From Metallosphaera yellowstonensis MK1 (GTDB lineage: Archaea > Thermoproteota > Thermoprotei_A > Sulfolobales > Sulfolobaceae): a stretch of 64,000 nt of DNA. Position numbers and translations under genes: made by a program. Positions 16,097 through 20,321 of this stretch are shown here, one piece after another (the stretch's first letter is position 1; every line of letters begins with the position of its first letter). The notes beneath the pieces are model-generated. The model was not told the DNA's origin and searched no databases. It saw only the letters and a program-made list of their open reading frames with translations. The DNA is taken from the NCBI RefSeq assembly GCF_000243315.1, contig NZ_JH597768.1:427322-491321 (forward strand), in the 5' to 3' direction.

Positions 16097-16357
16097 ATGG
16101 GAAGTAACTTGGTAACCGCGATAGTCCTTATAAATACTGACCCAGGAGGCGAGGAGGAGGTATTTAATAAACTAAAGCAGATGAACGAGGTCTCAGAGAC
16201 TTACATTGTTTACGGAGTATATGATATAGTGACGAAGCTGGATGCGCCTGACATGGACACTTTAAGGAACTTCATTAGTAATAATATAAGAAAACTCCCT
16301 AAAGTGAGATCCACATTAACCATGATAATTATGGAGGGCAAGACACAGAAAAAATGA
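16097..16357 (+). CDS. Stand-alone Lrp/AsnC effector-binding (RAM) domain protein
   Basis: 86 residues from ATG 16097 (MGSNLVTAIVLINTDPGGEE). The alternating strands and helices (ETYIVYGVYDIVTKLDAP, RSTLTMIIMEG) match the ligand-binding domain of Lrp/AsnC regulators, without a DNA-binding HTH. Such proteins can join with full-length Lrp proteins or sense amino acids. A TATA-like CTTATAAC at about 16069-16076 sits 24-28 nt upstream, pointing to a leaderless transcript. tiaS overlaps its stop by 4 nt. Confidence 0.8.
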   Translation: MGSNLVTAIVLINTDPGGEEEVFNKLKQMNEVSETYIVYGVYDIVTKLDAPDMDTLRNFISNNIRKLPKVRSTLTMIIMEGKTQKK

Positions 16358-17601
16358 ATACGAAGAGATATACCATAGGATTGGATGATCACGACTCGCC
16401 CGTAGCAGGATGTACCACTCATTTTTCATTTCTATTAATCAAAGAACTGGAAAGAGAGGGACTTAAACTCGTAGGTTTTCCTAGATTGGTAAGACTTAAC
16501 CCCAACATACCATGGAAGACCAGGGGAAACGCTGCAGTGAACTTCACCGTAGAAACTGACAGGGACCCCTCAGAAGTCCTGGATCTGATATGGGACAAAT
16601 CCTTACAATATGTCTCAGAGATCTCTAAAGGCACGCAATACGGGAGGTCCCCAGGGGTCGCAATAGTAAAGGACGTTAAAACTAATGAACTAGGCTGGCT
16701 CTACAGAAAGGCAGTCACTGACGTGGTAACTAGGGATCTTGTGGAGAAGATTGCCGTCAAAACGGGCGTCTTATTTCAGGGAGGTAGAGGAGTCGTTGGA
16801 TCCGTGTCTTCCATGGGATTCCGGGGGGAAGGGAAGACGTTGGAGTTGCTCACGTACAGGTTGCCAGAAAACTGGGAAAAGAGAAGAGAAGTTGACCTGC
16901 AGTCACTGATAAACTTTGAAGAAAGGTATTTCCCAGACGTTTACGCAAACGTGGACTACATTAATGGTAAGCCACTCATCCTCTCCCACGGGAGAGACCC
17001 AGTACTTTTCGGGATCAGAGGAAGAAATCCTTCCGTACTTTTAGAGGGATTAAAAATGATAGAGGTATCGGAGATGATAGATGGTTTTATGATATTTGAG
17101 ACTAATCAGGGTACAGATCATCATTTCCTGAGGATAGGTGATAAACCATATCAGAGCATCATAGCCGAAGTTGAGGTAAAGGATGTAAAGATCATGCCTG
17201 GGGGTGATTGTATAATATTTTCTACCCACGGAACCATGATTGTTTACAAAGAAACTGGGGAGTTAAACGATATGGCTAGAGAGCTTATGGAGGGCGACGT
17301 AATAAGGGTATATGGAGCCGTCAAACCTTCCGTGAGTTTCGGCAAGATTATAGAGCCAGAAAGAATTGAAGTCCTTCGGCTATCGAGTGTCACTAAATAC
17401 CTCAATCCCAAATGCCCCAAGTGCGGAAACTCTTCGGAATCCCTGGGGAAAAATAAGGGTTTCAGGTGTAGGAGATGTAACTACAGGTTTAACTCGGAAA
17501 AAATCCCTATAGAATATCACAGACGTATATCCATTGGAACATATCAATCGAGATATTATAGGCATTTGACGAGGCCAATTTTCTGGGAAAACGAGAGCTA
17601 A
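16354..17601 (+). CDS. tiaS: tRNA(Ile2) 2-agmatinylcytidine synthetase TiaS
   Basis: 415 residues. Attaches agmatine to C34 of tRNA-Ile2 so it reads AUA. Visible: the N-terminal GLDDHDSP and GCTTHFSFLL kinase-like motifs, KGTQYGRSPGVAIV, the GGRGVVGSVSSMGF loop, an OB-fold region around residues 270-340, and a C-terminal zinc ribbon (CPKCG near 350, CRRC near 371). Length and order match the family. Coupled to the Lrp-like gene by a 4-nt overlap. Confidence 0.94.
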   Translation: MNTKRYTIGLDDHDSPVAGCTTHFSFLLIKELEREGLKLVGFPRLVRLNPNIPWKTRGNAAVNFTVETDRDPSEVLDLIWDKSLQYVSEISKGTQYGRSPGVAIVKDVKTNELGWLYRKAVTDVVTRDLVEKIAVKTGVLFQGGRGVVGSVSSMGFRGEGKTLELLTYRLPENWEKRREVDLQSLINFEERYFPDVYANVDYINGKPLILSHGRDPVLFGIRGRNPSVLLEGLKMIEVSEMIDGFMIFETNQGTDHHFLRIGDKPYQSIIAEVEVKDVKIMPGGDCIIFSTHGTMIVYKETGELNDMARELMEGDVIRVYGAVKPSVSFGKIIEPERIEVLRLSSVTKYLNPKCPKCGNSSESLGKNKGFRCRRCNYRFNSEKIPIEYHRRISIGTYQSRYYRHLTRPIFWENES

Positions 17602-17793
17602 CAATGAACGTTATAGTCAAGATTCGGGTAAACTGGGGGAGTAAGCGAGTTTAACATGTGTCATGTAATAGGTCAAAAAGCCTCTACCCCGCCCCTAGAG
17701 GAGGCGAGACTTGTCGTTCGTTTTATCAATTATCCTGAAATCCATCTAAATCCTTAATTATAATTAGTTTAAGACTTCTACTGAAATATATTA
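17602..17793. other. Gap after tiaS with orphan hairpin
   Basis: No gene is seen. Positions 17675-17715 contain GCCTCTA...TAGAGGAGGCGAG, resembling the hairpin at 4232-4278 and the TnpB-element end at 3541-3580. A TTAATTATAATTA palindrome lies near 17753. Confidence 0.4.
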
Positions 17794-18206
17794 CAGCAGT
17801 TATGAGACTTTAAGGTAACTTGAAGATTTTCCTCCGGTCCGATCCACTTAAATACCTTATCATCAACTAATTTCAGGAAGTCCCCCACACTGACTAGGTT
17901 TAGATCTATCACCAACTCCTTGATCTCGTTGACCATGACGAAGAAGAGGAGATAGGCTTGGAGTTATTCCTTCAACCTAAACTACGAGTCCTCCGGGTCC
18001 AAGGTCTTGAAGTCCCTGTGGAACTACTCTATCTCTCACCTGATCCTTCAGGTTTACTTGATCTTCTCCAGGTCGAAGGATAGGTCGGTCGTGTAGAGTT
18101 GCTTTCTCTCATGATTCCCGTCGAATTTCGAGTTGTCCTCATCTCATATGATAAACTTGAATGTAACCGGGGTATCCCCTAGGTTAGGTCGTCGTAATAG
18201 ACTGTA
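17794..18206 (-). pseudogene. Decayed IS4-type DDE transposase (C-terminal part) with terminal repeat
   Basis: One minus-strand frame from about 18206 to 17806 gives a readable protein interrupted by seven stop codons but no frameshift. It contains TPVTFKFII, ERKQLYTTDLSFDLEKIK, then R-x-E-I-E-x-FHRDFK, which fits the R(3)E(6)K part of the IS4 signature, and QAYLLFFVMVNEIKELVIDL. The end CAGCAGTTATGAGA at 17794-17807 matches the terminal repeat of the 4103-4166 hairpin element. The N-terminal half and the other end were not found. Confidence 0.65.
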
Positions 18207-18257
18207 ACTCTTTTACGTAACTACTCGTTATTTTCAATTTTATAAATATCGTTTTGA

Positions 18258-18486
18258 CGTCGGTCATGTTCATGTAGTATTACCCAAGAATTCTCTCTTG
18301 ATGATCTCCCAACCGATGACGGGCACTACTCACGAGGATGGGAGAAGTTGGATGGGAGGGTATTGAAGTTTCCCTCGACCAGCCCCAATGATCTGGGGGT
18401 GACCGTGTATGATCCCTTAAGAGGGGTGCCCGTGGCGGAATTAGAAGTGACTAAGAGTGAAGGATAAGTTACGCCATGGGTAAACA
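18258..18486 (+). pseudogene. Gene remnant within ~190-bp repeat, copy 2
   Basis: Positions 18298-18486 match copy 1 at 3344-3536. Here a frame is open from 18258 to TAA 18465-18467 (69 codons) and reads like protein: DDLPTDDGHYSRGWEKLDGR, then VLKFPSTSPNDLGVTVYDPL, then RGVPVAELEVTKSEG. No normal start codon is present in the open part. I do not recognise the family. The CCCGTGGCG/CGCCATGGG inverted repeat straddles its stop codon. It lies about 75 bp from the origin. Confidence 0.5.
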
Positions 18487-18560
18487 CTCTGAGGATAACT
18501 CAACCCCTTGGAGGTACCCTCAGCCTCCTACGCTCCTGGGATTAACCGGGGAGTAAATAA

Positions 18561-18752
18561 CCCCTCTGTTTCCACTGGAAGAAGTCAAGAAAACTACCAC
18601 ACCCCTCTTTTTCCAGTGGAAAATGAATTGGGGTACAATTTTGGTTAAAGGTCTAATTCTACGGTTTGTATATCTTATATTCTCTACTCGACAACAACTT
18701 ATCATAATTCAGTCAAATGTTAAACTGAGGGTCTCCAGTGGAAACGGAGGGG
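18561..18752. other. Replication origin oriC1 with ORB-like sites
   Basis: Three origin recognition box-like sites are visible. Two are on the minus strand: 18561-18582 (CCCCTCTGTTTCCACTGG then AA) and 18604-18624 (CCCCTCTTTTTCCAGTGG). One is on the plus strand at 18733-18752 (TCCAGTGGAAACGGAGGGG). Each joins a TTCCAGTGGAA-like dyad to a G-string that points outward. Between them, 18628-18725 is AT-rich and fits an unwinding element. Sulfolobus oriC1 lies upstream of cdc6-1 and has this ORB type; cdc6-1 begins 380 bp to the right. Cdc6-1 would bind these sites and load MCM. Confidence 0.85.
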
Positions 18753-18835
18753 TCCCCGTCAGGGGGTTAGAACATCAAGAAAGGACGGGAATGACTTAAG
18801 TTGAATTTATAATCAAAACCTCATTTAGTCTAATT

Positions 18836-18910
<75 letters not shown>

Positions 18911-19130
18911 GGAGGGAGTGGGGAGCGCGACCTCACTTCCCTGAGATTATTAGACAAAGAGTTATTCTTCTTTCCTGAGATCCCCAAAACGTACAGGGTT
19001 GCCTAAGCGTAATGGGTGGGAATAGAACTCTGCAAGGTTTGAAACTATGGGCTCCGGTAGTTATGATTAACTCCCCAGTTAATTCAGGGATCCAATTCCT
19101 TTTATCTCATACTGTATAAGAGTTTAGTAA

Positions 19131-20321
19131 ATGAGTGACATTATAGACGAGGTCTTGCTTTCTGTCAGGAATTCGTCCATTTTCAAGAGCAGGGAGTACA
19201 TGTTGCCAGACTACGTGCCAGACGAACTACCTCATAGGGAAAACGAGATCAAGAGGTTGGCCAGTATACTAGTCCAGCTCTATCGGGGAGAGAGGCCGAG
19301 TAATACATTCATATATGGACTCACGGGTACAGGAAAGACAGCTGTCACGAAATATGTGTTGAAGAACCTTCAGAAGAAACTGCAGAGCTTCGATTTCGTT
19401 TATATAAACTCCAGACAAAGTGATACCCCATATAGGATCCTAGCCGACATCTCTGAGACGTTAGGCTCAAAGGTACCCTTTACGGGCCTCTCTACGGCAG
19501 AGTTGTACCGAAGGCTCGTCAAGGCCCTAAAGCAGACCCAGAAGCTGATCATAATAGTGCTGGACGAGGTTGATGCGTTAGTGAAGAGACATGGTGACGA
19601 CATCCTGTACAAGCTCACGAGAGTCAACTATGAAATAGAGAAGGGGAAAGTCTCCATAATAGGGATAACTAACGACGTCAAGTTCATAGACGGCCTCGAC
19701 CCAAGAGTGAGGAGCAGCCTTGGTGAGGAAGAACTTGTTTTCCCTCCCTATAATGCTGAACAACTAGAGGATATATTGACCAAGAGGGCCGCAGTGGCGT
19801 TCAAGGACGGGGCGGTATCACAACAGATAATCAAATTATGTGCAGCAATAGCAGCCAGGGATCACGGCGACGCCAGGAGGGCCTTGGACCTCCTAAGGGT
19901 CTCTGGGGAAATAGCTGAGAGGGAGAGGAGAACTACGGTGACACAGGAAGATGTTGAGAAGGCCAGGTGGGAGATCGAGAGGGACAGGGTCTACGAGATA
20001 GTCTCGACCCTCCCACTACACTCCAAGCTAGTCTTGACCTCCATTCTGAAGGGCCTCAAGAACAAGCCCAGCCTCACTACAGGAGAGATATATGAGACGT
20101 ATAAGAGGACGGCGAAGTCACTGTATGCGGAGTTCGTGACACAGAGGAGGGTGAGCGATATAATCAATGAACTGGATATGGTAGGGATAATTTCGGCAAA
20201 GGTCGTAAACAGAGGGAGGTACGGGAAGACCAAAGAGGTGAGCCTCGCAGCAGACCAGGGAATAGTGTTGAAAGCGCTGGTGGAGAACGATGAGAGGCTT
20301 GCTGATATCTGGCGTAGATGA
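19131..20321 (+). CDS. cdc6-1: Orc1/Cdc6 replication initiator, Cdc6-1 type
   Basis: 396 residues. Recognises ORB sites and loads the MCM helicase. AAA+ motifs: Walker [11 protein letters not shown] near residue 65, Walker [12 protein letters not shown] near 145, sensor 1 IGITND, sensor 2 [12 protein letters not shown]. The C-terminal winged helix includes [19 protein letters not shown] and [11 protein letters not shown]. The start [30 protein letters not shown] is the Cdc6-1 N-terminus. A TTTTATCT box at about 19099-19106 lies about 27 nt upstream, so the message is likely leaderless. Overlaps the next gene by 32 nt. Confidence 0.95.

Follow-up and report, generated by a model that had tools for sequence, protein, structure and literature searches.

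An oriC1-type replication origin of Metallosphaera yellowstonensis MK1, apparently inverted together with a tRNA-Ala gene between tiaS and cdc6-1

The best-described counterparts of the locus reported here are the oriC1 origins of Sulfolobus islandicus and Saccharolobus solfataricus, in which three origin recognition boxes (ORBs) are arranged as ORB3-DUE/ucm-ORB2-ORB1 next to the initiator gene cdc6-1. In S. islandicus, the ucm ATTATACAAAC is bound by UBP and is required for oriC1 firing, which in vivo also needs ORB2 and ORB3, and the corresponding mutants have normal Orc1-1 levels (PMC12141716). The same origin is described as containing palindromic C2 and C3 sites to which Cdc6 proteins bind (PMC3718332); sites of this class are recognized by Cdc6-2 or Cdc6-3. 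The oriC-1 of Sulfodiicoccus acidiphilus HS-1 comprises three ORBs upstream of cdc6 and a ucm, with ACCCCTCTGTTTCCACTGGA as an ORB sequence (PMC6647314).

We analyzed a stretch of 64,000 nucleotides from Metallosphaera yellowstonensis MK1 (hereafter, the window), which lies within contig C17 (563 kb) of a 2.82-Mb draft genome in 21 contigs. ORBs were scanned for with the family ORB consensus TCCASTGGAAANNGAGGGGT. The locus contained the following features.

16354-17601, plus strand: tiaS, tRNA-Ile2 agmatinylcytidine synthetase (NCBIfam NF040849, E 1e-81, under the curated cut-off)
17814-18212, minus strand: decayed ISC1217-type transposase (PF04693 DDE_Tnp_2, E 4e-11; homologous part about 17889-18176)
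18199-18487: copy of a dispersed, MITE-like repeat of about 290 bp (from the alignment of copies)
18542-18557, minus strand: 16-bp palindrome TTTACTCCCCGGTTAA adjoining ORB1, at the left end of the putatively inverted block
18560-18579, minus strand: ORB1, the outer ORB of the pair (0 mismatches to TCCASTGGAAANNGAGGGGT)
18601-18620, minus strand: ORB2 (0 mismatches to TCCASTGGAAANNGAGGGGT), 41 bp from ORB1, the same spacing as in congeners
18621-18733, between ORB2 and ORB3: AT-rich interval, presumed duplex unwinding element (same position in relatives)
18664-18674, minus strand: ucm-like motif GATATACAAAC, which has 2 mismatches when compared with the published 11-mer ATTATACAAAC (presumed UBP site)
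18734-18753, plus strand: ORB3 (0 mismatches to TCCASTGGAAANNGAGGGGT)
18835-18910, plus strand: tRNA-Ala(GGC), 100% identical to the tRNA beside oriC1 in congener G005
19067-19082, plus strand: second palindrome copy TTAACTCCCCAGTTAA, where the cdc6-1 promoter ancestrally carries it, at the right end of the block
19099-19106, plus strand: TATA-like element CTTTTATC of the putative cdc6-1 promoter, assigned from sequence (aligns with congeners)
19131-20321, plus strand: cdc6-1/orc1-1 initiator gene (Cdc6_C PF09079, E 4e-29)

The initial annotation had described three ORB sites, two on one side and one inverted on the other, with an AT-rich stretch between them. All three were recovered without mismatches, each a dyad with a G-string directed outward, away from the interval between the sites; the span first given, 18561-18752, located them correctly and was one base short on each side. 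At up to three mismatches, 0.18 ORB sites per window were expected by chance, and three sites arose in 0 of 100 shuffles. Mismatch-free ORB sites numbered exactly three in the 2.82-Mb genome, all at 18560-18753, against an expectation of 0.0006 from base composition. A 19-mer three mismatches away from the ORB consensus, TTCAAGGGAAAGAGAGGGG, occurred in about 35 identical copies in the genome and apparently belongs to another repeat family. Comparison with known oriC1 sequences, which had been proposed as a check, showed that the ORB at 18560-18579 is letter for letter the published ORB of Sulfodiicoccus oriC-1, and that the order and spacing of the elements are those of the relatives once the segment is inverted. 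The interval between ORB2 and ORB3 was 68% AT compared with 55% in the window, which ranked it among the 2.6% most AT-rich stretches of its length, and it carried the ucm-like motif in the position expected of a Sulfolobales oriC1, between ORB2 and ORB3. This motif was found with identical letters in congener G002, and its core TATACAAAC was invariant across the genus alignment. GC skew within the window had no turning point at 18.6 kb and was uninformative about the origin.

The start of cdc6-1 was located 378 bp past the last ORB (380 bp in the initial annotation), so that the linkage to cdc6-1/orc1-1 characteristic of Sulfolobales oriC1 was present. The gene shared 73-80% identity with its Metallosphaera and Aramenus counterparts, and the genome contained two further orc1/cdc6 genes. 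The tRNA-Ala gene was confirmed to lie between origin and initiator and is still directed outward from the origin. On the left side, tiaS was also the neighbor of the origin interval in G001, G002, and G005. The gene debris noted earlier on this side was real and comprised the transposase relic, with seven in-frame stops and 68 matches in the genome, and the dispersed repeat, of which there were about 40 near-full copies; rather than abutting the origin, it ended at about 18487, some 55 bp before the conserved elements of the origin begin.

The sequence, number, spacing, and polarity of the ORBs, the ucm-like motif, the AT-rich interval, the adjacency of cdc6-1, and the tiaS synteny were all as in relatives. 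These data argue strongly that 18542-18753 is the Metallosphaera chromosomal oriC1, as the initial annotation had considered probable, and that it very probably forms part of an origin and tRNA-Ala segment, about 540 bp long, whose orientation between tiaS and cdc6-1 has been reversed. Judged by its motifs, the oriC1 itself is a typical origin of a known kind. It shared with the oriC1 of S. islandicus and Saccharolobus solfataricus the three-ORB polarity, the AT-rich center with a ucm, a palindrome, probably of C type, beside ORB1, and the adjacency to cdc6-1, whereas in the window the origin was reversed, lay 378 bp instead of about 65 bp from cdc6-1 with tRNA-Ala in between, and had the palindrome on both sides of the block. 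Sulfodiicoccus acidiphilus HS-1 is probably genome G013, in which the start of cdc6 adjoins the published oriC coordinates; G013 retained the ancestral arrangement, with ORB1 as the neighbor of cdc6, in contrast to the inverted order of the window. In Metallosphaera javensis AS-7 and the other congeners (G001-G005), the block of palindrome, ORB1, and ORB2 was 78-87% identical to that of the window with the same 41-bp spacing, and the tRNA-Ala and, where checked, the tiaS neighbor were also the same; however, the origin was not inverted in these genomes and was accompanied by a single palindrome, whereas the window had two copies.

To place this arrangement within the family, we compared all 31 Sulfolobaceae genomes in the sample (one genome per species), among which 28 genomes other than that of the window had recognizable ORBs. 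Read toward cdc6-1, the order was ORB3 (reverse), ucm, ORB2 (forward), ORB1 (forward), and cdc6-1 (forward) in all 28 ORB-bearing relatives. ORB1 was located 55-250 bp upstream of cdc6-1, ORB3, where found, was distal and of opposite polarity, ucm was oriented like ORB1 and ORB2 in every genome in which it was found, and a divergent tRNA-Ala usually lay past ORB3. In the window, the order was ORB1 (-), ORB2 (-), ucm (-), ORB3 (+), tRNA-Ala (+), and cdc6-1 (+), with each element before cdc6-1 reversed; the side bearing ORB1 and ORB2 does not face cdc6-1 and ORB1 is absent from the promoter, in departure from a rule that derives from the 28 genomes and is no part of the published definition. When the minus strand was read, tRNA, ORB3, ucm, ORB2, ORB1, and palindrome aligned unbroken with G001, G002, and G005, and the alignment with G003 held from ORB3 onward. 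Similarly, the blastn matches of window positions 18542-18623 (78-87% identity) and of the tRNA ran antiparallel to cdc6-1 in five of five congeners, and the start region of cdc6-1 gave a same-strand match.

These alignments support the inversion of oriC1 and tRNA-Ala as one block inside a conserved tiaS/cdc6-1 interval. Since tiaS and cdc6-1 bracket the interval in congeners as well, the change appears to be local and confined to it. The initial annotation was right in calling the neighborhood rearranged and missed the nature of the change, very probably a block inversion of the origin and tRNA-Ala relative to cdc6-1. By parsimony, the inversion would be derived in the lineage of the window, and the inverted oriC1 is, on the aligned genomes, a new arrangement within the Sulfolobaceae as sampled with one genome per species; we found no published work on an inverted oriC in Metallosphaera. 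The tRNA-Ala is an ancestral neighbor that formerly lay distal to the origin, and its interpretation as an insertion or intruder was rejected on this ground. Independent gain and loss of ORBs in place of an inversion was likewise ruled out, since the ORB1-ORB2 spacer, the orientation of ucm, and the tRNA were reversed together.

Other departures from the common arrangement were observed in the family. In two genomes of one genus (g3: G007 and G016; loci L065 and L067), the tRNA-Ala upstream of ORB3 lay on the same strand as cdc6-1, against the family rule, with the origin in its usual orientation, which points to an independent event that turned only the tRNA gene around. The oriC1 of G021 (L070) was about 150 bp away from cdc6-1 and retained the ancestral orientation. 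No recognizable ORB was found upstream of cdc6-1 at L072 (G011)/L005, Sulfolobales archaeon HS-7, so that its oriC1 has either moved or is built on another ORB sequence.

Next, we focused on the ends of the block. Congeners had a single near-palindrome TTTACTCCCCGGTTAA, separated from the preceding ORB1 G-string by 2-4 bp and followed closely by the cdc6-1 TATA. The window contained two copies in opposite orientations, one at the ancestral spacing to ORB1 and the other at the ancestral spacing to the TATA-like element. The palindrome at both ends suggests an inverted block of about 540 bp that is bounded by it, and the right breakpoint is only bracketed because the stretch 18911-19066 had no detectable match in relatives. 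Duplication of the palindrome would follow from a staggered break that was filled in; alternatively, it may have occurred by recombination with a dispersed palindrome copy. The right copy differed at 2 of 16 bases, and its similarity to the dispersed copies extended beyond the palindrome. Within 17600-19140, the block was not spanned by any inverted repeats exceeding about 20 bp, and inversion through recombination of long inverted repeats was ruled out on this basis. Given this result and the lack of a second copy of the 290-bp repeat on the right, mobile DNA is a neighbor of the inversion and not its demonstrated cause.

By analogy with S. islandicus, the palindrome beside ORB1 is probably a C2/C3-type initiator site and was retained as such a candidate. 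It was kept in nearly all genomes of the family, with its central hexamer in either orientation. The exact palindrome TTWACTCCCCRGTWAA occurred in 5-11 copies per Metallosphaera genome versus none for the backward-read control, and several copies clustered within a few kb of an orc1-3-like gene; Orc1-3 or Orc1-2 is a possible reader. Apart from window positions 18542-18557 and 19067-19082, palindromes were recorded at loci L137-L146, L184, L185, and L189-L202. Another recurring setting was a conserved pair with a spacing of about 2.5 kb, often in coding sequence. A reading as a SegB site was rejected, since SegB has the motif TCTAGASTCTAGA.

If the origin works like those of Sulfolobus islandicus and Saccharolobus, the cdc6-1 product Orc1-1 would bind the three ORBs. 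Published work suggests that Orc1-1 on ORB2 and ORB3 would recruit MCM, as two hexamers, to the AT-rich interval and that UBP, at the ucm between them, would aid helicase exit. In the proposed rearrangement, a segment of about 540 bp with the origin and tRNA-Ala would have inverted between tiaS and cdc6-1, with the right breakpoint past ORB1 but short of the palindrome in the promoter of cdc6-1, such that the palindrome was left on both sides. The origin would have retained every internal part and its geometry, and cdc6-1 would have kept its TATA and palindrome while losing the ORB from its promoter. Replication is bidirectional, and the forks should therefore be unaffected by the inversion.

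Three other explanations of the locus were considered. The origin might be real and its inversion an error of assembly, a concern raised by the fragmentation of the draft into 21 contigs, its great richness in insertion sequences and repeats, and the dispersed-repeat copy at the left edge of the site. We regard this as unlikely, because both ends of the 563-kb contig are over 100 kb away from the site, neither long inverted repeats spanning the block nor a copy of the dispersed repeat on its other side were found, which leaves no obvious repeat that could have misled an assembler, and a palindrome at both ends is not created by a simple mis-join. Slightly less probable still is that oriC1 died after the inversion and an invasion of insertion sequences, leaving replication to the other two origins. 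S. islandicus replicates from three origins, the window genome has two more orc1/cdc6 genes, and insertion-sequence debris lies beside the origin, all of which would fit such a relic. Loss of oriC1 activity is also tolerated in ORB and ucm mutants of S. islandicus (PMC12141716). Against decay, all three ORBs were free of mismatches, and the ucm core, the spacing, and cdc6-1 were intact; ORB3 was in fact worse in four of five congeners, with one or two mismatches or not found at three.

The proposal that the three sites serve mainly as an operator for autoregulation of cdc6-1 rather than as a replicator draws on relatives in which ORB1 sits inside the promoter, 55-90 bp ahead of the start of cdc6-1. 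It is the least probable of the three and very improbable in itself: the sites of the window are at least 378 bp away, with a tRNA gene in between, and are still perfect, and firing in S. islandicus needs ORB2, ORB3, and ucm, with normal Orc1-1 levels in the mutants (PMC12141716). A replication origin inverted relative to its initiator gene remained our preferred reading of the locus.

In the Sulfolobaceae compared here, origin and initiator promoter are merged, with ORB1 inside the cdc6-1 promoter, and it is consequently hard to tell which function conserves ORB1 and the adjacent palindrome. The window genome was the only one found in which origin and promoter appear to be cut apart, and it may therefore offer a direct test of initiator autoregulation against origin function. 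ORB1 was still perfect at its 41-bp spacing with the origin, and the promoter had no ORB, which hints that ORB1 may be conserved for the origin. We tentatively propose, as a possibility short of an even chance, that a natural inversion parted oriC1 from the cdc6-1 promoter, with ORB1 and its palindrome remaining perfect beside the origin, that ORB1 was kept for the origin and not for autoregulation of cdc6-1, that oriC1 works either way round, and that the palindrome has separable roles. The inversion would also illustrate a route by which a shared regulatory site stays on both halves. If this proposal is true, oriC1 would be functional whichever way it faces its initiator gene, and the C-type palindrome would combine two separable functions, an origin function and a promoter function.
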